Shown: piece after piece, positions 38,031 to 58,097 of the stretch | Position numbering within the stretch: position 1 is the stretch's first letter | How the letters are laid out: each line of letters starts with the position of its first letter | NCBI GenBank assembly: GCA_019721075.1 | Contig: JAHEAD010000001.1 | Span: 248,001-312,000 of the forward strand | Direction: 5' to 3' | DNA length: 64,000 nt | Source of the DNA: Candidatus Sysuiplasma jiujiangense | Lineage (GTDB): Archaea; Thermoplasmatota; Thermoplasmata; Sysuiplasmatales; Sysuiplasmataceae | Position numbers and translations under genes: made by a program | The notes under the pieces: model-generated | Told to the model about the DNA's origin: nothing | The model's database searches: none | What the model saw: only the letters and a program-made list of their open reading frames with translations

Positions 38031-38169
38031 AGCAAAAGATCTAAGAGAACAGGCCACCAGGCACGGAATTGGAGAAACTGAGCTCGCGGAACTCCTCGAC
38101 ACGTGGTTCCTCGAGCATTTTGAGCCGCCGACCAGCTTCGGCGAGCTGATACACGGGGTGTTCTGCTGA
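37981..38169 (+). CDS. Small acidic helical protein, coupled to the helicase gene
   Basis: A 62-residue protein that is mostly helical and charged (KDLREQATRHGIGETELAELL). The ATG at 37981 has GGGGG seven bases upstream, and its stop overlaps the helicase start by one base (TGATG), a sign of coupled translation. It could be a helicase partner or regulator. No family is recognised. Confidence 0.6.
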   Translation: MSSLSAHVATRSEFPNEAKDLREQATRHGIGETELAELLDTWFLEHFEPPTSFGELIHGVFC

Positions 38170-39845
38170 TGACCTCTGCAGAAGGAACCGGCGTCACTGG
38201 CAGTCTGTTTGACAGGGGCTCCTCGGCCGGCATGTATGTGGATTCGCTCGGCATTGAAAAGGATATGCTCGCCCACATGAATTTCATCATGGGTGCACCT
38301 GGCACTGGAAAGACAACAGCGTTGGGCGCAATATGGAAACAGTTTGATGAGCACTCAGTCAGATACTATGTGACCTACAACAGGTCCATGGGAAAAGAAG
38401 CGAGGGAGCGCCTGGGCGGAGACAAAAGGACAATCGGGACGTTTCATTCAATTTGCACGAGATTGCTGGGATGGAAAGTCGGAAAGGGCAAATCGGGAAT
38501 CGATGGTGATTTCCTCACGGACGCGCAGATTTCCGATTTTGCCGCTAGATATAATATCGAAAAGAAAGGCGTCACGCGCCCGTGGGAGGAAGATTCGGAC
38601 ATAGAGCATCATGATGAGCTCAGCCAGATTATGATGGCGTGGAGCGTGGCGAGGAATCAGGTTCCTGAGGACTCGCCGAATAACTGGAGGGGTGACGAAA
38701 ACAGGGATCTGGAACTCCTCCTGCATCACTACAGGCAGTACAAGCACGAACTCGGCGACAAAAAGGACTATGATGATGTCCTGGAGGAGACTGTCAGGCT
38801 GGAGGAACAGTATGGTGTCGACGGCCCGTTGCCGCGTTGCGATTTGCTGCTCATAGACGAGGCGCAAGACCTTACCCCCCTTATGTGGAAACTCTGTGAC
38901 TTGTGGTCCAGGAAGGCGGAAACCGTAGTGATTGCGGGGGACGATGACCAGAGCATATACTCTTTTCGAGGTGTGGACGTGCATGACTACCTCGGAAGAA
39001 TTACAGCTCTCAACTCAGGCCGGCTTTTCATCCTGAAAAGGAGCTACAGGCTATCGAGTGAGATACTGATCCATGCCGGAAAGACAATCGACGGCGTCTC
39101 GAACAGGATCAGCAAGGACATAGAACCGGCTGTTGCCGGCGGCATCGTCGAGTATGCGCGCTCGCTCGATAATGTGGTGAAGTCAAAAGGGAAGAGGATG
39201 GTGCTGTGCTCCTCCGGATGGCTGATGCAGGAAATATCATCCATCGTGGATGCACGGTATCCCGACGTGATACTGCTGGCCTCGAATCCGAAGCACCAGG
39301 GAAGGCTGCTCTGGTCGCAGAAAATGATAGAACTCGTGCGTATAATATCCAGGTTTCCCAACCTGAGCAGAGAGGAGTTCAGATTCCTTGCATCATGTCT
39401 TCCTGCGTCCGGGTTGCTGAAGAGGGGCGTCAAGACCAGGGTCAGGGAGAACAGATTCTTCTCAGCAGATGCTGCGGTGCAGCAGAGGCTTGATTCGGGA
39501 AGTGCTGATGAGGCCGAGATACTGAGCGCATTTGAGGGCACCCCTACGAAGGAGCAGCTGGTGAGGGAACTGGACTACAGGGGAAAGAAGAAGGAAGTAA
39601 TGCTCAGGTGGATAGGCAGGGAGATCACCGATGATTGTTTTGTTTACATCGGGACCTACCATGCTGCCAAAGGGCTGGAGGCTGACACTGTGGGCCTTGT
39701 GCTCGATATTGGCAGGAAATGGATGGAGCAGCAGACCTCCAATCCCGACGGCGTCCGCAGGCTGCTGTATGTTGCCAGGAGCAGGGCGAAAAGCTATCAC
39801 GTCGAAATTTCACTCGGCATTGGTGAGGGGGTGTGGTCATTTTGA
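38169..39845 (+). CDS. UvrD/Rep-like superfamily 1 DNA helicase
   Basis: A 558-residue helicase with all SF1A motifs in order: I GAPGTGKTTA (residues 42-51), II DEAQDLT (about 230), III GDDDQSIYSFRG, IV KRSYRLS, V GTYHAAKGLEADTV and VI YVARSRAK. It is shorter than cellular UvrD (about 720 residues). A role in replicating the element fits its position directly before the iteron array. Its stop is followed at once by the repeats. Confidence 0.92.
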   Translation: MTSAEGTGVTGSLFDRGSSAGMYVDSLGIEKDMLAHMNFIMGAPGTGKTTALGAIWKQFDEHSVRYYVTYNRSMGKEARERLGGDKRTIGTFHSICTRLLGWKVGKGKSGIDGDFLTDAQISDFAARYNIEKKGVTRPWEEDSDIEHHDELSQIMMAWSVARNQVPEDSPNNWRGDENRDLELLLHHYRQYKHELGDKKDYDDVLEETVRLEEQYGVDGPLPRCDLLLIDEAQDLTPLMWKLCDLWSRKAETVVIAGDDDQSIYSFRGVDVHDYLGRITALNSGRLFILKRSYRLSSEILIHAGKTIDGVSNRISKDIEPAVAGGIVEYARSLDNVVKSKGKRMVLCSSGWLMQEISSIVDARYPDVILLASNPKHQGRLLWSQKMIELVRIISRFPNLSREEFRFLASCLPASGLLKRGVKTRVRENRFFSADAAVQQRLDSGSADEAEILSAFEGTPTKEQLVRELDYRGKKKEVMLRWIGREITDDCFVYIGTYHAAKGLEADTVGLVLDIGRKWMEQQTSNPDGVRRLLYVARSRAKSYHVEISLGIGEGVWSF

Positions 39846-39846
39846 G

Positions 39847-40089
39847 TGTTCCAAATGTTCCAGAAATCAGGAGATGTTCCATTGAACAGAAGTGTGCATT
39901 TCCATCGTAAATGTTCCAATGTTCCAAATGTTCCAATGTTTTTAGCGAAGCGTAACGAGAAATTATTTTTGAAAGTTGGAACACTTGGAACTTTTGGAAC
40001 AAGACGCCGTTTTTTGCCCGTTTCCCTATATAGGGGGGTACTGAAGTATGTGTTCCAACTCGCTTGCAATTTTTGGAGCACTTGGAACA
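39847..40089 (+). repeat. Iteron-like array of TGTTCCA / TGGAACA
   Basis: Seven copies of TGTTCCA occur at 39847, 39856, 39875, 39912, 39920, 39929 and 40051, and the reverse form TGGAAC at 39977, 39986, 39995 and 40083, plus a variant TGGAGCA at 40074. Spacing within clusters is 8-9 bases. The array fills the gap between the helicase and an unknown 428-residue protein. Such arrays are typical of plasmid origins bound by a Rep protein, or of multi-site operators. Confidence 0.8.
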
Positions 40090-40129
40090 CAATAATACCC
40101 CCCATGTATGGGCAAAAAGGAGGGATAGT

Positions 40130-41416
40130 GTGATAAAAAAAGACAAGCCCGAAGAGCATAACTTTCAGTATTACGATAAATCAACTGAGACGCTCATACG
40201 GCTTACTGAAAGAAAGTTCACGACCAGAACCTATGGCGTGGAGGATCCCAGGGATGTGGTGCTCTACACCGGCAAAGCATTCGTCCTTTTCGGGGACAGA
40301 CAGAGCATTCTCCAGGAAACCGAAGAGACTGAAGAGGGCTTTCCATTCCATCTTGTGATCAAGCCATCCGACAATTTGTATGGGTTCCTGCCTGATTTAA
40401 GGCGTTACACAAGAAAGGGTATCATGGCCGGTTCTCCTGTTGACCCCATGGACATTCAGAGCGATTTCGGGAGAACGCTGTTCCAGGACATCGAAAATCA
40501 TCTGGGCAGGGTGGAAACTTCAGCCCTCTGTGGAAGATTCCTGCAGGCGTTGCATGAACACTCAGATGGCACTGATACGGTCATGATAGAATGGTTGCTG
40601 GAAAATACACAGATTGTGGTGAACTACGGCGCGCCAACGGGCATGGACATCACAATTGAAGGCAGGACATTCCGACTGAAGGACGATGATGTGATCACGA
40701 GCAAAAACTTCACGATATGGTTCGTGAGCGAATTCGGCAAATATCCCATCCTGAGCAAGGTAGACTGGCAGCAGCTTGTAACTTTCTGGTCACAGCGCAG
40801 CATAAGGAAGGATCCCGCATCGGACAGCATCGCCGAACCAATCGTGGATGACTTCCTCGACATGCTGCAGATGGCCACCTGCGCAGTTGATTTTGGTCCG
40901 GCAGTGGGTGATAAGATATCCGTCAAGTCATCTGTCTTCGTCGCCGATGCGCAGACCGATTCTGTCTTCGTCCCTGTCTACATGATGAATTCGCTTTTCG
41001 CCAACTACAACCTGTCCTCGCGAAAGAAGAGGCAGATGCTCGGTTCATTCCTCAAGGGCGTCGAGAAACAGAAAAAGCGTGTGGAATGCGAGAACGGCAG
41101 CAAGATGCAGCCATGGTTCTGGGTATTCAAGCTCTCGCGCATAAGGTCGGAGCGCCCTGGCATAATCCCGTCAGGCACGCTGGATGATGCGCAGAACGCT
41201 CAGGATGCAGGCGTCCAGGGCATGGTAAACGACGGCCTCAGCTTTTCGACAGACCCCACAGATATGATGACTTATGTGTTTCGATGCAAGTCTCCCGTAT
41301 CATTCAAGCTCGATGGCGCCCAGTATACGATGGGGGACGATGACGCTGAAATCCTCCCGTCAAAGGTCGCCAAACATCTTGAGTCGCTAGGCTTCGGGAG
41401 GGCTGACGCAGTATGA
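40130..41416 (+). CDS. Unknown 428-residue protein downstream of the iterons (candidate replication protein)
   Basis: The GTG at 40130 follows AGGAGGG by five bases, so translation starts here and not at the upstream ATG inside the repeats. The protein is soluble and mixed alpha/beta; a C-terminal part (FLKGVEKQKKRVECENGSK then FWVFKLSRIRS) looks like a winged-helix with a basic wing, as in phage or plasmid primase/Rep C-termini, but no catalytic motif is recognised. Position beside iterons and helicase suggests a Rep or origin-binding role; this is inference. Confidence 0.75.
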   Translation: MIKKDKPEEHNFQYYDKSTETLIRLTERKFTTRTYGVEDPRDVVLYTGKAFVLFGDRQSILQETEETEEGFPFHLVIKPSDNLYGFLPDLRRYTRKGIMAGSPVDPMDIQSDFGRTLFQDIENHLGRVETSALCGRFLQALHEHSDGTDTVMIEWLLENTQIVVNYGAPTGMDITIEGRTFRLKDDDVITSKNFTIWFVSEFGKYPILSKVDWQQLVTFWSQRSIRKDPASDSIAEPIVDDFLDMLQMATCAVDFGPAVGDKISVKSSVFVADAQTDSVFVPVYMMNSLFANYNLSSRKKRQMLGSFLKGVEKQKKRVECENGSKMQPWFWVFKLSRIRSERPGIIPSGTLDDAQNAQDAGVQGMVNDGLSFSTDPTDMMTYVFRCKSPVSFKLDGAQYTMGDDDAEILPSKVAKHLESLGFGRADAV

Positions 41417-41502: not shown

Positions 41503-42237
41503 ATGACAGGCAGAACAAACATTGAGTGGTGCGACTACAGCTGGAACCCTGTAACAGGGTGCAGCAAAGTATCGGAGGGATGCCGCAACTGCTACGCGGA
41601 GGCTCTATCGCACAGGTTCGGCAGGAGCTTCGAAGTTACTCTGCATCCTGAAAGACTCACAGCCACAAGGAAGTGGAAGCCAGGCAGGATATTCGTAAAC
41701 AGCATGAGCGACCTCTTTCATGAAAACATCCCGTTTGAATTCATCACCGAAGTCATGCACGAAATGGACCGCAACAAGCAGCACACATACCTCATATTGA
41801 CCAAACGCCCCGAGAGAATGGTGGAATATTTTGGCGAAGCCTACTACGACTGCACGCTTCCTTCACATGTCTGGTTTGGGGCAAGCATTGAGAACCGCAG
41901 ATGGACAGGGAGAGCGGCAACACTCGTATGGATGAGATTATTCGCAGCACACATCTTCCTGTCATTGGAACCGCTTCTTGAGTCACTGGCTCCCTTCGAC
42001 TGGCTCTGCGATAACGTACCAGACTGGATAATCGCAGGCGGGGAAAGCGGCCCCCATTTCAGGCAGGCCGATGCACAGTGGTTCAAGGAGATTCGTGACT
42101 TTTGCACCGCACATGATATTCCATTTTTCTTCAAGCAGCCGGGCGGCCTGAGACCTGGAGGCCGTGCACTCCTCGACGGGCAGGAATGGCGTCAATCGCC
42201 GCCTGCTTGGAAGGGTTTTGTTGGAGGGAGTGAATGA
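41503..42237 (+). CDS. Phage Gp37/Gp68-family (DUF5131) protein
   Basis: A 244-residue protein starting with the family motif TNIEWCDYSWNPVTGCSKVS and CRNCYAE, a radical-SAM-like cysteine arrangement, followed by FVNSMSDLFHE, LTKRPERM and SIENRRW. The family is widespread in phages and plasmids and also occurs near TcmP in defence loci; the reaction is unknown, an iron-sulfur cluster is likely. The stop overlaps the next ATG (ATGA). Confidence 0.88.
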   Translation: MTGRTNIEWCDYSWNPVTGCSKVSEGCRNCYAEALSHRFGRSFEVTLHPERLTATRKWKPGRIFVNSMSDLFHENIPFEFITEVMHEMDRNKQHTYLILTKRPERMVEYFGEAYYDCTLPSHVWFGASIENRRWTGRAATLVWMRLFAAHIFLSLEPLLESLAPFDWLCDNVPDWIIAGGESGPHFRQADAQWFKEIRDFCTAHDIPFFFKQPGGLRPGGRALLDGQEWRQSPPAWKGFVGGSE

Positions 42238-42862: not shown

Positions 42863-43807
42863 TTGAACAAAAAGCTCCTGATTTTGCTGTGTGCCAGCGC
42901 AATGATCGTGATGGGCGCTATTGGCGCCGCTCCGCCTCAAGTCTCATCTCACAGAGGAGAGGGCATTGCAGCCTCACCTTCCGTGACACTTGTGGCACCT
43001 GTCTTCAGCCTGACGGCGCAGTACAAAGCCGTGAACATCAGTGTCACTAATCAGTCAACATCCACATCCGGTGTCATCAACTACATTGTGCACTACTCGA
43101 CTTCGTCGGCAATTACGAATGCTACGCAGAACATCTCGACGGTCAACGGGCGCGACTGGATTGAGCTCAGTGCGCTCACGCCGGGCACTGTCTACTATTT
43201 CGCAGTTGACGCGGAGAACATGACCGCACCGATAAAGAGCACATCCTTCGGTCCGCTTTCCGCCGTTCAGTCCACTGCTCCGTTGGGCATCTTTTCCTAC
43301 AATGTGGCCTTAATGAAAATCCATAAAGTAACGAAAGGAAACAAGTCCGGCGACTGGAACATCACTGTTCCGATCGCGACGCTGTCCGGCGCAAACTTCA
43401 ATTCAATGCAACTGTGGTATGACATGTCGAATGTGAGCGGGTCTGCACTGTTCAGCAGCTCACCCATCCTGCCATCGTATTCAACCATCACAAAGACGAG
43501 CTCCAACTGGACGTTCAACGATGTCGTGCTGCCCGCCGGAACTGTCTTTCTGTATGGAGTGTTCAACTTCTCTGTCTCTTCAGGCCCGTACAAGGGTCTT
43601 GGTGTCACACAAACAGGCTCACCTGCCAAACATCTGACAACCGGTCCGCAGCCGACAGGCATATTCATCTTCGGCAGCAACGGAGCAATGGCGCTGATAC
43701 TGTCGCCTCTCGGCACCGTGATCGTCATAGTTGTCGGAGTGCTGGTGGTCTACGTTGTCTTCCGCGGCGGCGAGCACGAGGAGAAAGAGAAGGAAAAGAG
43801 GAAATGA
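42863..43807 (+). CDS. Secreted/membrane-anchored protein with fibronectin-III-like repeat
   Basis: A 314-residue protein with an N-terminal signal peptide (LLILLCASAMIVMGAIGA), an extracellular beta-rich part with many N-x-S/T sequons and the FN3-like ending LTPGTVYYFAVDAENM, and a C-terminal membrane helix followed by a charged tail (GGEHEEKEKEKRK). The start is a TTG at 42863 after GGAAAGGGAAAG. Likely a surface or virion membrane protein; the NWTFND motif recurs in the next gene. Confidence 0.75.
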   Translation: MNKKLLILLCASAMIVMGAIGAAPPQVSSHRGEGIAASPSVTLVAPVFSLTAQYKAVNISVTNQSTSTSGVINYIVHYSTSSAITNATQNISTVNGRDWIELSALTPGTVYYFAVDAENMTAPIKSTSFGPLSAVQSTAPLGIFSYNVALMKIHKVTKGNKSGDWNITVPIATLSGANFNSMQLWYDMSNVSGSALFSSSPILPSYSTITKTSSNWTFNDVVLPAGTVFLYGVFNFSVSSGPYKGLGVTQTGSPAKHLTTGPQPTGIFIFGSNGAMALILSPLGTVIVIVVGVLVVYVVFRGGEHEEKEKEKRK

Positions 43808-43835
43808 CGGGAAGGTCGCGCAGGGAGTTGATAAG

Positions 43836-45836
43836 ATGAACTCAACAATCGAAACAGGGAATGTTCACAGGCATGTCAAAGCGCCGGGCAAGCTGCACTC
43901 GCAGAATGGCAGAAGGATTCTCATAGCTGCGCTTGTCATTGCGTCTGTGGGAATATTCATCTCATCCTCCACTGTGGTCGAGGCAGCTGTTCCGTGGTAC
44001 GTCACTGTGGGTGAAACTACAATAGCCGGTGCTGCAATAGGCGGAGCCTTCGGTGGCCCAATTGGTGCGGTAGGAGGAGCAATTGCCGGAGCGGCAGTCG
44101 GAGCATTGATAGCATATCAAATTGGACATTCAGCTAAAGGATATACTCCGTCAGTGAATATGTCACCGCAAATACAAGACCAAATAATACAAGCTTACAA
44201 TACAATTTCAGAAACAGAAAACATAGGATTTACTACTTCATCATTGGTCAATACATCATATTATTATTTTGCGCAAGAAGTAGAATCTTTTGCAACAAGA
44301 TACATTAACACTTCTCTAAATCAGTCAGAATTGATGTTAATGGCTGGAATATATGCACAACTCGATGGAATACAAATTTCCGTAGTTAGACCTATGGCAA
44401 CTGAATTAATGTTTCTGCAACAGTATGAACTCGAAAATTATGCTGGTGCTTCAAGCACTGAACAAGCAACTTTTGTTCCAGCAATAACAAATAGCGGTAA
44501 AACTGGAAATTCGATTAACCTTGGTGATTACTATTATTTAAATCAAAACAATTCTATATATTTCTGGACTTCTGGATATGTTGAATTGAAAAATATATTC
44601 ACCGGAAACATAACTAATGTAAGCGCATCATTAAGTTCAGTCACTGATACTACACCATACATAGACTATAATACGGTTCACTATGTTAGAACAGTATCGG
44701 GTTCTACAATAATTAATGCCTTATATGGTGGAATTAACTATCTGTCAACTTCTAAAAGGCTTAACCTTACTGGTTCAATATATCAAGTAGTAAAGGAAAA
44801 CGGTATCATAACTACTGACGGATTATCATTAGGTTCAAATTGGAATGGTCAAATTCAAAATTATTTCACATTAGCTAATACATATATGTTTGTCAATATG
44901 AATACTGCTAGTAATAGCTTAGCAGAAGGTTCAGCTGGAATTGTTAACACTACAAGTTCATCATCAATATATCAGTCCGCAACATCAGCAAATAACTACA
45001 ATGCCCTTGACATAGTTACTTTCGGATCATCACCAGCACCATATTACATCAGTAGCAGTGATAACATACAGGCAAATATATCCTTAGAGCCATATACAAA
45101 TATGATAAACACATTGAATACAGCTGTAAGTAATGCATATTCTTCAGCTGAAGCATACATAACAATGCTTAGAGATTTAGGCTATACAAACTACTCTCAA
45201 ATTCCGGCAAATGAAACAATACCTTTTCCATCGTGGTCAGTCCCACTAAGTCTACTCAATAATCACTTCAATGAAACACAACTTATGGCTATGTATTATG
45301 CATATCTTGAAAGCCTAAATGCCACATTCCACAACAACAACAATAAGCTCCCAGCGAACTGGACATTCAACGATACTAAATTCCTAAATTCATTCACGAT
45401 TGAGACCGGAATACTGAATATCACCAATTCCTTCGACGGCTACCACAACATCACCGGAGAATTCATGATCGAGACGAACAGTCAGCACATGAATTTCGCA
45501 GTCGGGCACACGACGAAATTCACTGCCCTGACTCCGATAGTGGCTATCAATGCAACGCTCGGCGACCCCACATATATATCAGGCGACCTGATTGAGGCCT
45601 CTCCCAACAGCACCATCTATGTGACTGCGCTATCAGTCAATGGCACTTCGGTGACTTCGACGAGCATATATCCTGCCCCGATTACCGTCGTCATCTCACC
45701 ATTCGTTTCACCCGTCACGCAGCATAATGGCGGCTTCTTCATGCAGAAGGAAGGGCCGCTGGCTACATGGGAATGGATACTCATCGGACTGATATCAGTG
45801 GTAGCAGTTGCGGCAATCTTCGAGAGGAGGGACTGA
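43836..45836 (+). CDS. Large spike-like surface protein with mosaic base composition
   Basis: A 666-residue protein from the ATG at 43836. It has a hydrophobic signal/anchor near residues 28-48, a glycine-zipper membrane-active stretch (GGAFGGPIGAVGGAIAGAAV, about 69-88), a long Ser/Thr/Asn-rich ectodomain with many sequons, and a C-terminal helix ending in a short basic tail (FERRD). Codons between about 44110 and 45340 are clearly AT-rich, while both ends are GC-rich like the neighbours. Layout matches a viral spike or fusion protein; this is inferred. Confidence 0.75.
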   Translation: MNSTIETGNVHRHVKAPGKLHSQNGRRILIAALVIASVGIFISSSTVVEAAVPWYVTVGETTIAGAAIGGAFGGPIGAVGGAIAGAAVGALIAYQIGHSAKGYTPSVNMSPQIQDQIIQAYNTISETENIGFTTSSLVNTSYYYFAQEVESFATRYINTSLNQSELMLMAGIYAQLDGIQISVVRPMATELMFLQQYELENYAGASSTEQATFVPAITNSGKTGNSINLGDYYYLNQNNSIYFWTSGYVELKNIFTGNITNVSASLSSVTDTTPYIDYNTVHYVRTVSGSTIINALYGGINYLSTSKRLNLTGSIYQVVKENGIITTDGLSLGSNWNGQIQNYFTLANTYMFVNMNTASNSLAEGSAGIVNTTSSSSIYQSATSANNYNALDIVTFGSSPAPYYISSSDNIQANISLEPYTNMINTLNTAVSNAYSSAEAYITMLRDLGYTNYSQIPANETIPFPSWSVPLSLLNNHFNETQLMAMYYAYLESLNATFHNNNNKLPANWTFNDTKFLNSFTIETGILNITNSFDGYHNITGEFMIETNSQHMNFAVGHTTKFTALTPIVAINATLGDPTYISGDLIEASPNSTIYVTALSVNGTSVTSTSIYPAPITVVISPFVSPVTQHNGGFFMQKEGPLATWEWILIGLISVVAVAAIFERRD

Positions 45837-45838
45837 AT

Positions 45839-46366
45839 TTGCCACATGGCAAGTCGTCGTCGCCGCGTCCAAAAGCGGCGCGCGAGGACATCACCGTAAA
45901 TGTGAATGAGGGCAGGAGGGAGGGAGGCAAGTCCTCCATCCTCAGCATCGTTCTCATTACGCTCTTGGTCTTTGCGGGCGCCTATTACTTTGTTACGACT
46001 TATGTCGCAGGCTTTGTCCAGGGCGTGCAGAACTGGTGGGCTGGTGTCGTCAATGGCTGGAACAACTTCTGGAACGGCGTGAAGCATCCGCTCGGCCTCG
46101 GCATGCTGCCAATAGGCGCCGTTCTGATGGTCCGCAAGAAGGAGGAGAAGGACAGCGGCAGCGCCGCATGGCTCATTCTCGGCATCCTGTTCATCCTGTT
46201 CACTCTCGGCGCGCTCTATGTGACATGGGCGGACTACCTCGTCGCGACTGCATTCAGCGCCCTTGGAAAGGACATATGGGGCAGCCTTCTGTTTCCCGTC
46301 GCAGCCGTCATCATCTTTCTGGCGCTCGCAGTCCTCAGCTTCCGCAAATCACATGAACTGGGTTGA
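45839..46366 (+). CDS. Three-span membrane protein with aromatic loop
   Basis: A 175-residue protein started by a TTG at 45839 (GGAGGGACTGAA upstream). A basic cytoplasmic N-terminus precedes hydrophobic segments at about residues 38-62, 102-124 and 142-165, with a Trp/Asn-rich loop (NWWAGVVNGWNNFWNGV) that may lie at the membrane surface. No family is recognised. It follows the spike-like gene by two bases. Confidence 0.65.
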   Translation: MPHGKSSSPRPKAAREDITVNVNEGRREGGKSSILSIVLITLLVFAGAYYFVTTYVAGFVQGVQNWWAGVVNGWNNFWNGVKHPLGLGMLPIGAVLMVRKKEEKDSGSAAWLILGILFILFTLGALYVTWADYLVATAFSALGKDIWGSLLFPVAAVIIFLALAVLSFRKSHELG

Positions 46367-46371
46367 GGTGT

Positions 46372-46692
46372 ATGGTGAGGAAGGTCAAAGTCAGGCATCC
46401 GGGCAGTCTCCGCAGATATGGCTACAATCTGCATGAATCTGAATCGGCGAGACGGAGAGCGCTCGCGAAGGCCGACAGACGATACGGCCCCGGCAAAGTT
46501 GATCAGAAGCTCGATGCGCTTAACAGGTTCAACTCGCATCATCCTGCGAACAAGGGAAAAGTCAGGCAGGACCTGAGATGGAATGAGAAGCGCGACCGCA
46601 ATGGCAGGCATGAAGAGGTCGTGTGGGTTGACCCCTACACAAGATCGGACGGCACGCATGTGAGGGGTCACGACAGAATCGTCCGCAGGTAG
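46372..46692 (+). CDS. Small very basic protein resembling DUF5771 of giant viruses
   Basis: A 106-residue protein with the pattern PGSLRRYGYNLHESESARR then ALAKADRRYGPGKV and KLDALNRFN. The spacing of GSL-YGY, S-RR-AL-KA, YG and KL-AL matches what I recall of DUF5771 proteins in mimivirus-like genomes. Function is unknown there too. High Arg/Lys content suggests DNA or RNA binding, perhaps inside a particle. The ATG at 46372 is preferred over the TTG at 46363. Confidence 0.6.
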   Translation: MVRKVKVRHPGSLRRYGYNLHESESARRRALAKADRRYGPGKVDQKLDALNRFNSHHPANKGKVRQDLRWNEKRDRNGRHEEVVWVDPYTRSDGTHVRGHDRIVRR

Positions 46693-46701
46693 GGCGATAC
46701 C

Positions 46702-47229
46702 GTGAAGGCGCAGGGCAGGAAAAGGGAAGAAGACGAAGCCGCCGGCGGCGCAGCGCTGCTGGTGTCGCTCATAATCGATGTGCTTCTTGCGTGGTATATC
46801 CTCTCGCCAGTGTTCAAGTCCTCGATGCCCTCCTGGCTCAACATGGGCGTGCTGCCGCTCTGGTCGCTCGAACTGCTCGCAGTCGCAAGCCTGATCGTGA
46901 CCGTCATTGCAGTCATGAAACTGCTGCCCAGGGACTGGATGGGCGCTGCTCTCCTGCCTGTAGTCAGCATCAATCTCGGCTCTCCTGCCGTCGACAAGGC
47001 AATCATCCTGGGCCTTGTCGCCATCACGCTTTATCTCATATTCCGCGAGAGCGTTATCTATGCATCAAAGCGCCATGGCGGGGCGGCAATATTCGCCACT
47101 GTGCTGGCAATCGGAATAGCGCTGATATACTTTGGTTCCACGCTGCTTGGCGTCCTTGTTGTGCTCATCTTCATCTTCATGATCATCGTCGTCATCACTC
47201 ACCGCAGGCAGGAAGGTGAAGACGAATGA
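46702..47229 (+). CDS. Multi-span membrane protein, unknown
   Basis: A 175-residue protein from a GTG at 46702 with five hydrophobic segments and charged ends (KAQGRKREEDE at the start, HRRQEGEDE at the end). It lies between the small basic protein and the next membrane protein, with a 4-base overlap into the latter. It probably belongs to the same membrane-associated complex or particle. Confidence 0.65.
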   Translation: MKAQGRKREEDEAAGGAALLVSLIIDVLLAWYILSPVFKSSMPSWLNMGVLPLWSLELLAVASLIVTVIAVMKLLPRDWMGAALLPVVSINLGSPAVDKAIILGLVAITLYLIFRESVIYASKRHGGAAIFATVLAIGIALIYFGSTLLGVLVVLIFIFMIIVVITHRRQEGEDE

Positions 47230-48620
47230 AGGTGCACTTTCTGTTCGTTTCCGCGCTTCTGCTGCTCTTCGCCACCGTTCCAGGCGTCGCTATGGCGTCT
47301 TCAGGCCCTGTGATGACAGGCATCGTGGCAAACGATGGAACCCTCATGGCTTTCTGGTATCAATCACCGGCCGGGCAGCTCACAGGATCCTATACGCTAA
47401 TTCACCCTGGCGACACTGTGCAGACCGACACAATTCAGGTATCAATATACGCACCTAATGCAGGCGGAAATATCACACTGAGCGTCGAGCAGTATCAGCT
47501 TGTTCCGACAGCGGTCTTCATTCATTCAGGGAACGCCACGGTAACGCAGAATGAGCTCCTGCCCGGCAATATTGTGTGGGACAATCAGACGCTGCAGGCA
47601 CCATATCGCACAGTGGCGACAGATACGCTGCAGCTGCCGGTTTCATCCGGCATAAGCCACGTCCGATTGAGCTATGACGGCGCTTCAATAGTTTTCCTGC
47701 ATCACACAAGCCCGATTGTGCTGCCACTTCCCTTCAGCGGTGGCGGTGTCCTGGGTGTGTTTCTCGGCGCGCTCACCCTCGGCAGCATCGTATGGATGGG
47801 TGGCACCGGAACGGCTATCAGCGTCATCAGACGGGCAAAATACTGGCCCAGGCTGTCAAGCGCCCAGGCGATGCTAATAGTATTCGGCGGGATGGCTGCC
47901 TTCGTATTTCTTGTCGCTCCGTTTTTCTATTCGCTCGGATATCTTTCGTGGTACTGGTGGATCGTGCCGTTCTACCTCGTCTCTGTTCTCATAATGCTGA
48001 ACCTGTGGCCGTCAAGGGCTTACAGGTGGGAGACCCTGCAGATACAGGGCAATGAGAGCAACACGGAGATGCAGGTATTGCGTCAGGAAATTACAGTTGC
48101 CAAGACAGAGGATGGATGGGAGCGCATACATCCATACAGCTACCGTCATGCGGTTGCCCGGTTGTTCGGCATCCACACAAAACTCACATTCGGAGAGAGC
48201 GGCCCGGTATGGTATATGAGGACAGGTGATGAAGAGACCCTGTCGTCGCACAAGTCCAGGAAAGTTTCCAGGATATACCTGCTGCCCCCGATGGGTAACG
48301 GGATGACAGTCAGATGGTCGCATCTCGGATGGAAGGGGACGGGGAAAATAAAGCGCCCGGGCATAATCGAAGGGGAATGTATCATTCCCATCAGCGGGGA
48401 GCAGATGAGACCTGTTGCTGCCGTCCTGGCGGGTCTCATCAACGTGAACGCAGTGTCGCGTGACAGGGAGACAATACGAACAAGGCTCCTCAAGTTCCAG
48501 GCGCAACTCCATGCTGGAGCTGTTAAGAGTGACGCATCTGACCTGGAGATATACATGGAGGAGTTCCACGAGCGCAGCATAAATGCGGACAGGAGGCTCG
48601 GCAGCGATGATGGGGCGTGA
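47226..48620 (+). CDS. Membrane protein with extracellular beta domain and large cytoplasmic domain
   Basis: A 464-residue protein with a signal peptide (FLFVSALLLLFATVPGVAMA), an extracellular part of about 150 residues, a hydrophobic segment near 160-185, two more near 215-265, and a soluble C-terminal domain of about 190 residues. ATG at 47226 overlaps the previous stop region. Its neighbours make it a candidate structural or secretion-channel component. I recognise no family. Confidence 0.65.
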   Translation: MKVHFLFVSALLLLFATVPGVAMASSGPVMTGIVANDGTLMAFWYQSPAGQLTGSYTLIHPGDTVQTDTIQVSIYAPNAGGNITLSVEQYQLVPTAVFIHSGNATVTQNELLPGNIVWDNQTLQAPYRTVATDTLQLPVSSGISHVRLSYDGASIVFLHHTSPIVLPLPFSGGGVLGVFLGALTLGSIVWMGGTGTAISVIRRAKYWPRLSSAQAMLIVFGGMAAFVFLVAPFFYSLGYLSWYWWIVPFYLVSVLIMLNLWPSRAYRWETLQIQGNESNTEMQVLRQEITVAKTEDGWERIHPYSYRHAVARLFGIHTKLTFGESGPVWYMRTGDEETLSSHKSRKVSRIYLLPPMGNGMTVRWSHLGWKGTGKIKRPGIIEGECIIPISGEQMRPVAAVLAGLINVNAVSRDRETIRTRLLKFQAQLHAGAVKSDASDLEIYMEEFHERSINADRRLGSDDGA

Positions 48621-49038: not shown

Positions 49039-49179
49039 ATGAAAAGGAGAACAGGCGTCTGTGACAACTGCAGAAGGAGAGATGCCGTTTACACATACGG
49101 TTCACGCCATTTTTGCAGAGCATGTTATAATAGGGAGGTGAGCTCGCGAAGAGGAATGAGAGCGCTGCTGATCATGTGA
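49039..49179 (+). CDS. 46-residue zinc-finger micro-protein
   Basis: From the ATG at 49039 (GAGGGATC upstream) the product has CDNCRRRD and, 16 residues later, CRACYNRE, two CxxC knuckles making a four-cysteine zinc site. The stop overlaps the GTG of the ATPase gene (GTGA). It resembles other micro zinc proteins of this element (42234, 53769). Confidence 0.6.
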   Translation: MKRRTGVCDNCRRRDAVYTYGSRHFCRACYNREVSSRRGMRALLIM

Positions 49180-50624
49180 CGCTGGGCGAATCGGTGACAC
49201 CGAAGAAGCTGACGATGGCGACCAATCGCCTCACTTATGAGCTGCTCGACAGGGCGCTCGAGGAGTTGCGCACGCAATATTCGCTGTATGACGACCTGCT
49301 CGGGTTCCCTTCCGTTCGCCTCTTTGTCGACCACATCGAGATGCAGGCGCGGAATCACCCGTATTTTCGCGTCTACATGACGAAGGTAGAGGCGATCCTG
49401 CGTGAATTCTCTGATGGTCACCCCGACATAATGCACGTCACATGGAGGGAATCGCACCGTCGGTTTGCGTTGGCATATGAGCTCGGCAAGGAGATAGGCA
49501 TCATCGATGTCGAGGAACGTGGATCGCACGATGGCGCAGGCGGAATGGTGGAGATAGTCGAGGCCTCTCCTGAGTTGTTTCTTTTGCCTTGGATAGAAGA
49601 CAGGATATGGAAGAAGCAACAGAATGCCATGATTGCAGTCGTGGGACTTCCTGGCTCAGGGAAGTCATATGGCGCCATAGACATTGCGCTCGAACTCGTC
49701 GAGCGAAGTAAAGGCAAGGAGGAATGCTTCCACTTCGATGTCGAGCGCGATGTGATTTTCGACATCGATACGCTGGTTGACATGGCCTACAGGCGTGACG
49801 AGCGGCTGCCCAGAGGCCAGATAATCATATTCGACGACATGGGCGTCGGTGCCGGAAACCGTGACTGGCAGAGCGATTACAATGTCATTTTGGGGAAGAT
49901 TGCGCAGAGCTTCAGATTCATGGGCTTCGTGCTGCTTGTGACAATGCCCAAAATTGAGTTCATCGAGAAGCAGGTGCGGGAGCTGCTGGCCGCAAAACTC
50001 ATAAGCATGACGAACGAGAACGGCGAGAACATCATTGGGTGCTTCAGCCTGGAGGTAGCCTGCCAGTACGGAGAGGATATCATCTATCTTCCGCCGCAGC
50101 TGGACAGGGGAGATTTCCCTGACGAATTGGGTTTCGAGATACGGGCTGAAAGGATCCAGTTGTCTTCACTGCGTCTCCGTGAGCCTCAGAAACCCGTCAC
50201 CGAGCTCTATGAGGCAAGGAAAGAGAGCGAGCTGCGGGCACAGGTCGTGAAATTGAGGGATGAGATAGAACAGGCCAAGAACATGGACGCAGTCAGACGC
50301 GAGGCTTTGACCGCGAAATACACAGCGTTAAAGGAAAAGGTCGAGGAACTGGCAGAGGCTGAGGTCGAAGCGAAGAAGGCCAAATTCGAAGCGGAAATCG
50401 AGGAGGCCGAGACCAGGAAGCAGAAAGCGAGGCGGGAGAGGAAAATGATCCAGCATGCGAATGAGGAAGAGGAGAGGCGCAAGAAGAAAATCATCCAGCT
50501 TGTAATGGAGGGAAAGAGCCAGGCAGAGATAGCCAAGGAGATGGGTGTATCAAATCAGGCCATTAATCAGGCAATTCGTAGGCTTAGAAACAGGGGAGAG
50601 CTCACAACAATCACTCAAGGTTGA
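49176..50624 (+). CDS. P-loop ATPase with coiled coil and C-terminal helix-turn-helix
   Basis: A 482-residue protein with Walker A VGLPGSGKS (about 157-165), Walker B IIIFDDMG (about 215-222) and a sensor-like VTMPKIEF followed by RELLAAKL, resembling FtsK/HerA/Zot-type motor ATPases used in DNA packaging or particle assembly. After about residue 340 comes a long Lys/Glu-rich coiled coil (to about 440) and then an HTH (KSQAEIAKEMGVSNQAINQA). A DNA motor fused to a DNA-binding HTH is unusual. It ends the membrane-protein operon. Confidence 0.8.
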   Translation: MTLGESVTPKKLTMATNRLTYELLDRALEELRTQYSLYDDLLGFPSVRLFVDHIEMQARNHPYFRVYMTKVEAILREFSDGHPDIMHVTWRESHRRFALAYELGKEIGIIDVEERGSHDGAGGMVEIVEASPELFLLPWIEDRIWKKQQNAMIAVVGLPGSGKSYGAIDIALELVERSKGKEECFHFDVERDVIFDIDTLVDMAYRRDERLPRGQIIIFDDMGVGAGNRDWQSDYNVILGKIAQSFRFMGFVLLVTMPKIEFIEKQVRELLAAKLISMTNENGENIIGCFSLEVACQYGEDIIYLPPQLDRGDFPDELGFEIRAERIQLSSLRLREPQKPVTELYEARKESELRAQVVKLRDEIEQAKNMDAVRREALTAKYTALKEKVEELAEAEVEAKKAKFEAEIEEAETRKQKARRERKMIQHANEEEERRKKKIIQLVMEGKSQAEIAKEMGVSNQAINQAIRRLRNRGELTTITQG

Positions 50625-52037: not shown

Positions 52038-52103
52038 AGGCCGTCATCCACATTATGTGTTGGCCCTTGTTAAGTCTAACGGAATATCGAGGTTCCATCT
52101 GTC

Positions 52104-52266
52104 GGCCACCCCTCCCCCCCAAACGCATATTAATGATGTGCGTCTCCCCAGACTTCTGCAAGATGAGAGGCGGATGAATGACAAAAGAGAACGGATTTGT
52201 GAAGGAATACTACATGGGCAGGAAAGACCAGTTCGACGTGGATTACGCGCTCTTCAGGGAAGCCGC
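52104..52266 (+). repeat. Left copy of 163-bp direct repeat
   Basis: Matches 57935-58097 at most positions (C-rich stretch, then AAACGCATATTAA, the ATG region of a small gene and the TTCAGGGAAGCCGC end). The first copy lies 5.83 kb upstream of the second. It breaks off inside the small gene, so its reading frame is a truncated, chimeric version. Confidence 0.85.
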
Positions 52267-57922: not shown

Positions 57923-57934
57923 TGAATACCTTTC

Positions 57935-58097
57935 GCCCACCCCTCTCCCCAAAACGCATATTAAGGATGTGCATCTCCCCACACCTCCGCAAGATAAGAG
58001 GTAGATGAATGACAAAAGAGAACGGATTCGTGAAAGAGTATTACACAGGTAGGAAAGACCAGTTCGACGTGGATTACGCGCTCTTCAGGGAAGCCGC
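57935..58097 (+). repeat. Right copy of 163-bp direct repeat
   Basis: Pairs with 52104-52266. It begins 12 bases after the methyltransferase stop and covers the leader and first 30 codons of the intact small gene at 58009. The repeats bound the recombinase/restriction island. Confidence 0.85.

Follow-up and report, generated by a model that had tools for sequence, protein, structure and literature searches.

Within a 64,000-nt window of a contig from the archaeon Candidatus Sysuiplasma jiujiangense (JAHEAD010000001.1), a dense array of short repeats at 39847-40089 is probably the replication origin of an integrated element of ~14 kb. Its 7-bp words would be bound by an initiator that the element itself encodes, most likely a member of the family of the 428-residue protein whose gene starts at 40130 (hereafter the 40130 protein). 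All coordinates are positions within this window. A first-pass annotation, made from the sequence alone, had proposed an iteron-type origin, and this reading is the best supported of those we weighed because a helicase of the replicative type and the candidate initiator flank the array, because its layout is that of the origins of Staphylococcus aureus pathogenicity islands (SaPIs) and phage-inducible chromosomal islands (PICIs), and because the matching place in homologous archaeal modules is also occupied by an array. Whether the locus also represents a new type of archaeal replicon, in which a superfamily 1 (SF1) helicase, rather than a superfamily 3 (SF3) or MCM helicase, and a previously undescribed initiator family act on element-specific 7-bp words at a SaPI/PICI-like origin, is a broader proposal that we consider evenly balanced.

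A dense array of 7-bp words behind a helicase gene

The array contains ten exact sites, seven of them direct (TGTTCCA, at 39847, 39856, 39875, 39912, 39920, 39929 and 40051) and three inverted (TGGAACA, at 39977, 39995 and 40083), together with three sites that carry one mismatch (TTGAACA at 39882, TGGAACT at 39986 and TGGAGCA at 40074). The earlier count of seven TGTTCCA and four inverted TGGAAC copies was correct, the fourth inverted copy being TGGAACT; the single variant added to that count is in fact two further one-mismatch sites. In 2,000 dinucleotide shuffles of the segment 39846-40129, exact sites averaged 0.09 and reached a maximum of 2, compared with the 10 observed, which bears out the description of the density as far beyond chance. 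No 7-mer had five or more copies in 300-bp windows across the other 63 kb, and pairs of TGTTCCA no more than 12 bp apart occur at this locus only in the 2.29-Mb genome. The array is therefore far denser than chance and unique in its genome. Start-to-start steps within the clusters are 9; 8 and 9; 9 and 9; and 9 bp, so the 8-9 bp periodicity noted earlier holds inside clusters and not between them, where gaps range from 7 to 56 bp. Similarly, the 243 bp first given for the intergenic gap is the span of the sites; the gap from gene to gene is 284 bp.

The first site lies 2 bp past the stop codon of the helicase gene (39845), and 40 bp separate the end of the array (40089) from the start of the 40130 gene, whose GTG codon is preceded by a ribosome-binding site (GGAGGG, 40119-40124). 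The upstream gene encodes a UvrD-like SF1 helicase, and the 40130 protein had no match in Pfam or PHROG, in keeping with the earlier description of the flanks as a helicase and an unknown protein. The phage homologues of the helicase (PHROG 1967) adjoin primase and/or DNA polymerase genes, so it is a helicase of the replication type. Because the repeats face each other, the whole array can fold into a long imperfect hairpin as single-stranded DNA (z = -4.1).

On the basis of this arrangement, we propose that a DNA-binding initiator encoded by the element, with the 40130-family protein as the likeliest candidate, would bind the words, and that its assemblies on the two facing inner sets would strain and open the 41-bp AT-rich spacer between them. 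The SF1 helicase would then be recruited to the opened spacer, and priming, by a primase of the element or of the host, would follow. As each element has its own word (see below), each initiator would recognise its own origin only.

A module that recurs in archaea with different words

Homologues of the helicase, 24-40% identical, were found in several of 400 searched genomes of the same class. Arrays lie behind the gene in three of these: G573 (GGTCTCA; five copies past the helicase stop, six including one that overlaps it), G287 (GTAACAG, or CTGTTAC; eight copies) and G635 (AATAACC, or GGTTATT; 11 copies of the 7-mer ATAACCA). None of 500 shuffles for each locus reached these 7-mer counts (5, 8 and 11); for the small array of G573, counts of 6-mers and of 8-mers are less extreme. 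In the window and in all three relatives the array begins 2-40 bp past the helicase stop codon, and the arrays of G287 and G635 also have facing inner sets (two words, a gap of ~71 or 33 bp, and three inverted words). In G573 (E 4e-24) and G287 (E 5e-22), the gene that follows the array encodes a homologue of 40130, and a profile of the 40130 homologues detected more members in G635, in G480 and on another contig (C6) of the window's own genome.

The last two loci differ in their gene content. At a contig end, the C6 locus (G000:C6:88000-101216, L546) carries, in order, an ATGGTCA array (six copies; 0 of 500 shuffles reached this count), a 40130-like gene, a gene whose product resembles a primase (DNA_primase_S, weak match with E 0.005) and an SF1 helicase; it is predicted to be another, divergent module for replication in this genome. 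In the G480 locus (G480:C30:158000-172000, L554), a 40130-like fragment is followed by the gene for a 964-residue Prim-Pol/D5_N/DUF5906 (SF3) protein, and a GTGGGACA array comes immediately after that gene; this locus appears to link the layout seen in archaea with that of phages. Every helicase homologue with a 40130-family partner had an array (G573, G287, G635 and C6). No array was seen at three helicase loci without a recognised partner, two of which are remnants (G668 and G272) while the contig of the third ends soon after the gene (G698). That 40130-family genes co-occur with arrays, even beside a D5-type helicase in G480, is the main reason for proposing this family as the initiator.

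When the window element was compared with its relatives beyond the genus, convincing protein matches were limited to the helicase and the 40130 family, suggesting that the two genes and the array travel as a module, which is kept across the archaeal relatives while the word changes. The expectation that homologous elements would keep the array was accordingly borne out for the arrangement and not for the word TGTTCCA. Conservation of this word in archaea was rejected: 390 genomes of the phylum contained no second TGTTCCA array, and the three other matches were clusters in one orientation. A search of the open-licence literature found no paper on TGTTCCA arrays or on this archaeal module.

We consider it unlikely that the array is instead an operator, at which a repressor or activator of the element would act on the TGTTCCA words to control the 40130 promoter (a TATATAGGGGG box lies in the array) with no origin function. 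Such a role would fit the TATA-like box located inside the array ~100 bp before the 40130 start and the good ribosome-binding site ahead of its GTG, and autoregulation of initiator genes through iterons is common. However, the array starts right at the helicase stop and, at 243 bp with facing sets, exceeds the usual size of an operator; the G635 array is not upstream of the 40130-family gene; and the equivalent arrays of D5 phages and PICIs stand behind a helicase gene. The CCCTATATAGGG palindrome and the GGGGGG that follows it are a candidate for either an origin core element or the TATA promoter of the 40130 gene. This TATA-GGGG motif is shared by the arrays of the window, G573 and G635: 3 of 6 archaeal arrays carry it where 0.07 would be expected, as do 5 of 50 virus arrays (expectation 0.7). 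These figures serve only as a lead because the motif was picked after the sequences had been viewed; in archaea it may simply be a promoter.

A centromere-like partition site, to which a small DNA-binding adaptor would attach as at the heptad arrays of some plasmids, is less probable still. Plasmid centromeres with arrays of 7-bp words in both orientations do exist, but none of the genes adjoining the array was recognised as coding for ParA, ParM or a small ribbon-helix-helix protein, and its conserved neighbours are the helicase and, in C6 and G480, primases.

If the array is an origin, as we favour, the words could still be read by a protein other than 40130, namely the SF1 helicase itself or the AAA+/helix-turn-helix (HTH) protein encoded at 49176-50624, a possibility that we regard as less likely. 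The latter protein matches phrog_5484 (2.7e-12) and has C-terminal HTH matches, and AAA+ proteins with a C-terminal HTH often serve as initiators in archaea and bacteria. Its gene is 9 kb from the array, however, and of the related loci only G668, which has no array, showed any similarity to it (53 residues). SF1 helicases are not known to bind origins and load themselves there. In favour of the helicase as reader of the words, those of SaPIs and SCCmec bind their own iterons (PMC7581432). Taken together, the 40130 protein appears the most likely of the three to bind the words.

Several observations weigh against the origin reading or against 40130 as its initiator. We found no gene for a primase in the window element. 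In G635 the helicase gene stands between the array and the gene of the 40130 family, and in C6 the array precedes the 40130-like gene instead of following the helicase. A profile of 40130 matched no sequence in the PDB, neither 40130 nor its homologues matched a Rep family in Pfam or PHROG, and an AlphaFold model built from the single sequence had a mean pLDDT of 35 and was not interpreted. The idea that the 40130 C terminus is a D5-type winged helix was dropped, as a comparison with D5 C-terminal domains, based on a small, loosely aligned set, gave no profile similarity. Finally, the closest 40130 relative (99%) is uninformative on the array, as its contig in G001 begins within the 40130 gene, before the array would come.

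The host element and its neighbourhood

Similarity of the chromosome to same-genus genomes can be traced to ~37.6 kb, and G+C content rises from ~0.45 to ~0.53 between 38 and 51 kb, with the exception of one low-G+C gene at 44 kb. We infer from these two features that the array is part of an integrated archaeal element spanning ~37.7-51.5 kb. No D5_N, DUF5906, DUF927 or other SF3 helicase was recognised among the element proteins scanned.

Features of the array and its surroundings, with positions in the window
Feature	Coordinates	Strand	Details
UvrD-like SF1 helicase, 558 aa, replicative-type, PHROG 1967	38169..39845	+	Pfam UvrD-helicase 6e-24; phrog_1967 6.6e-52
Whole iteron-like array	39847..40089		10 exact TGTTCCA/TGGAACA sites and 3 one-mismatch sites
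Outer left sites	39847..39888		three direct sites and TTGAACA
Inner left set	39912..39935	+	three direct TGTTCCA, 8- and 9-bp steps
Spacer, candidate unwinding element	39936..39976		41 bp, 71% A+T
Inner right set	39977..40001	-	TGGAACA, TGGAACT, TGGAACA, 9-bp steps
CCCTATATAGGG palindrome running into GGGGGG	40024..40038		between inner and outer right sites
Outer right sites	40051..40089		direct TGTTCCA, then TGGAGCA and TGGAACA
40130-family protein, 428 aa, candidate origin-binding initiator	40130..41416	+	GTG start; homologues in same modules of G573, G287, G635, G000:C6, G480
AAA+/HTH protein, PHROG 5484, DnaA-like	49176-50624		phrog_5484 2.7e-12; C-terminal HTH matches

Directly behind the 40130 gene, 41503-42237 encodes a DUF5131 (phage Gp37/Gp68-like) protein that is >99% identical in G001, where it has the same neighbour. 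A block of genes at 42863-48620, all on the + strand, encodes secreted or membrane proteins, which are possibly virion or cell-surface proteins of the element; one of them matches a glycine zipper weakly. Beyond the element, a 168-bp direct repeat (52099-52266 and 57930-58097, 89% identical) flanks genes for a truncated integrase, an Mrr-type nuclease and a DNA methyltransferase. Pieces similar to this repeat occur near related genes in G002 and G003, which suggests that the repeats mark a second small island beside the element.

Related arrays in phages and known origins

Arrays of this kind also occur in viruses. Three TGTTCCA words in a row were found at >120 loci in virus contigs, and 50 of 120 among the matches listed were mixed-orientation arrays, defined as at least six sites with at least two each way; the counts are not independent, as many of these loci come from a few related phage groups. 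The reversed word ACCTTGT, used as a control, gave mixed arrays at 1 of 120 virus loci. A status for TGTTCCA as a unique, universally recognised word was rejected, as the G287 word GTAACAG gave them at 47 of 120. In contigs of cellular genomes, a two-plus-one TGTTCCA pattern yielded 40 mixed arrays at 117 loci, with the listed titles being bacterial. Several of the virus TGTTCCA arrays abut a D5-type helicase gene, and a D5-type helicase domain was present in 10 of the 50 virus records with mixed arrays, many of which are fragments. Among seven named phages sampled for a D5 gene (L384-L390), five (QT1, WildCape, AmM-1, Enkosi and Lederberg) had a convergent, mixed array of a phage-specific word directly 3' of the D5 primase-helicase gene. 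One phage group with MoxR/VWA genes (virus contigs L027, L128, L150 and similar) has TGTTCCA arrays with recurring AAGTGNTTGATT boxes; PF19263 (D5-type) helicase had no match in these records.

Searches of viral contigs with single sequences and alignments confirmed no close relative of 40130 or of the helicase, tblastn of 40130 against phages gave no match (E up to 1), and blastn with the array DNA returned only short, chance-like pieces. Nor did the intergenic gaps checked at phage loci of UvrD-like (PHROG 1967) helicases contain arrays, indicating that the array is not tied to these helicases generally.

If the origin reading is right, a single layout, with two facing sets of words and an AT-rich gap right behind a helicase gene, would serve bacterial and archaeal replicons whose helicases are unrelated, with the word acting as a swappable address label. 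Our scans detected such arrays both in archaeal elements and in several phages, and a systematic survey behind phage D5 genes could give origin words for over a thousand phages. On the same reading, the module would supply a concrete candidate initiator family, together with candidate origins for archaeal mobile elements, a group with few known origins, and might open the way to shuttle vectors for archaea that are poorly studied.

Among known systems, iteron-controlled plasmid replicons resemble the window in the dense packing of short repeats at the replication locus, but no gene of a known Rep-family initiator was matched in the window module. The replication protein of satellite phage P4 (alpha/ori/crr) recognises short iterons in both orientations; P4 differs in its two separate sites, its other word and its alpha protein, a primase-SF3 fusion. 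The phage D5/VirE modules share a convergent array immediately behind the helicase gene, built from a 7-8-mer specific to each phage (five of the seven sampled), and TGTTCCA itself recurs in virus arrays, whereas no D5 or other SF3 helicase was recognised in the window element. In the archaeal plasmid pRN1, the origin is an essential non-coding region directly 3' of the primase-helicase gene and, like the window array, has a long inverted-repeat structure, but it consists of one 100-nt stem-loop served by an archaeo-eukaryotic primase (AEP)-SF3 protein, without a word array (PMC4234260).

The island origins are closest. In the passages of PMC6092414 and PMC7581432 (citing Ubeda 2007) that describe them, SaPI/PICI origins follow the helicase gene immediately on its 3' side and have two iteron sets with an AT-rich region between them. 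In staphylococcal cassette chromosome mec (SCCmec), too, iterons lie directly downstream of the helicase gene, and SaPI Rep and SCCmec Cch2 bind the repeats behind their own genes via their C-terminal domains (PMC7581432). The window array likewise has inner sets around an AT-rich spacer and stands immediately 3' of a helicase gene (within 40 bp also in G573, G287 and G635), its words vary between elements, and a primase is nearby in some archaeal relatives. It differs in its archaeal host, in the additional protein without a family match after the array, and in its helicase, which is SF1 UvrD-like rather than a self-loading D5/DUF927 helicase. By analogy, the array has the PICI layout and would work like a PICI origin without being classed as one, because an SF1 helicase takes the place of the D5/DUF927 initiator.
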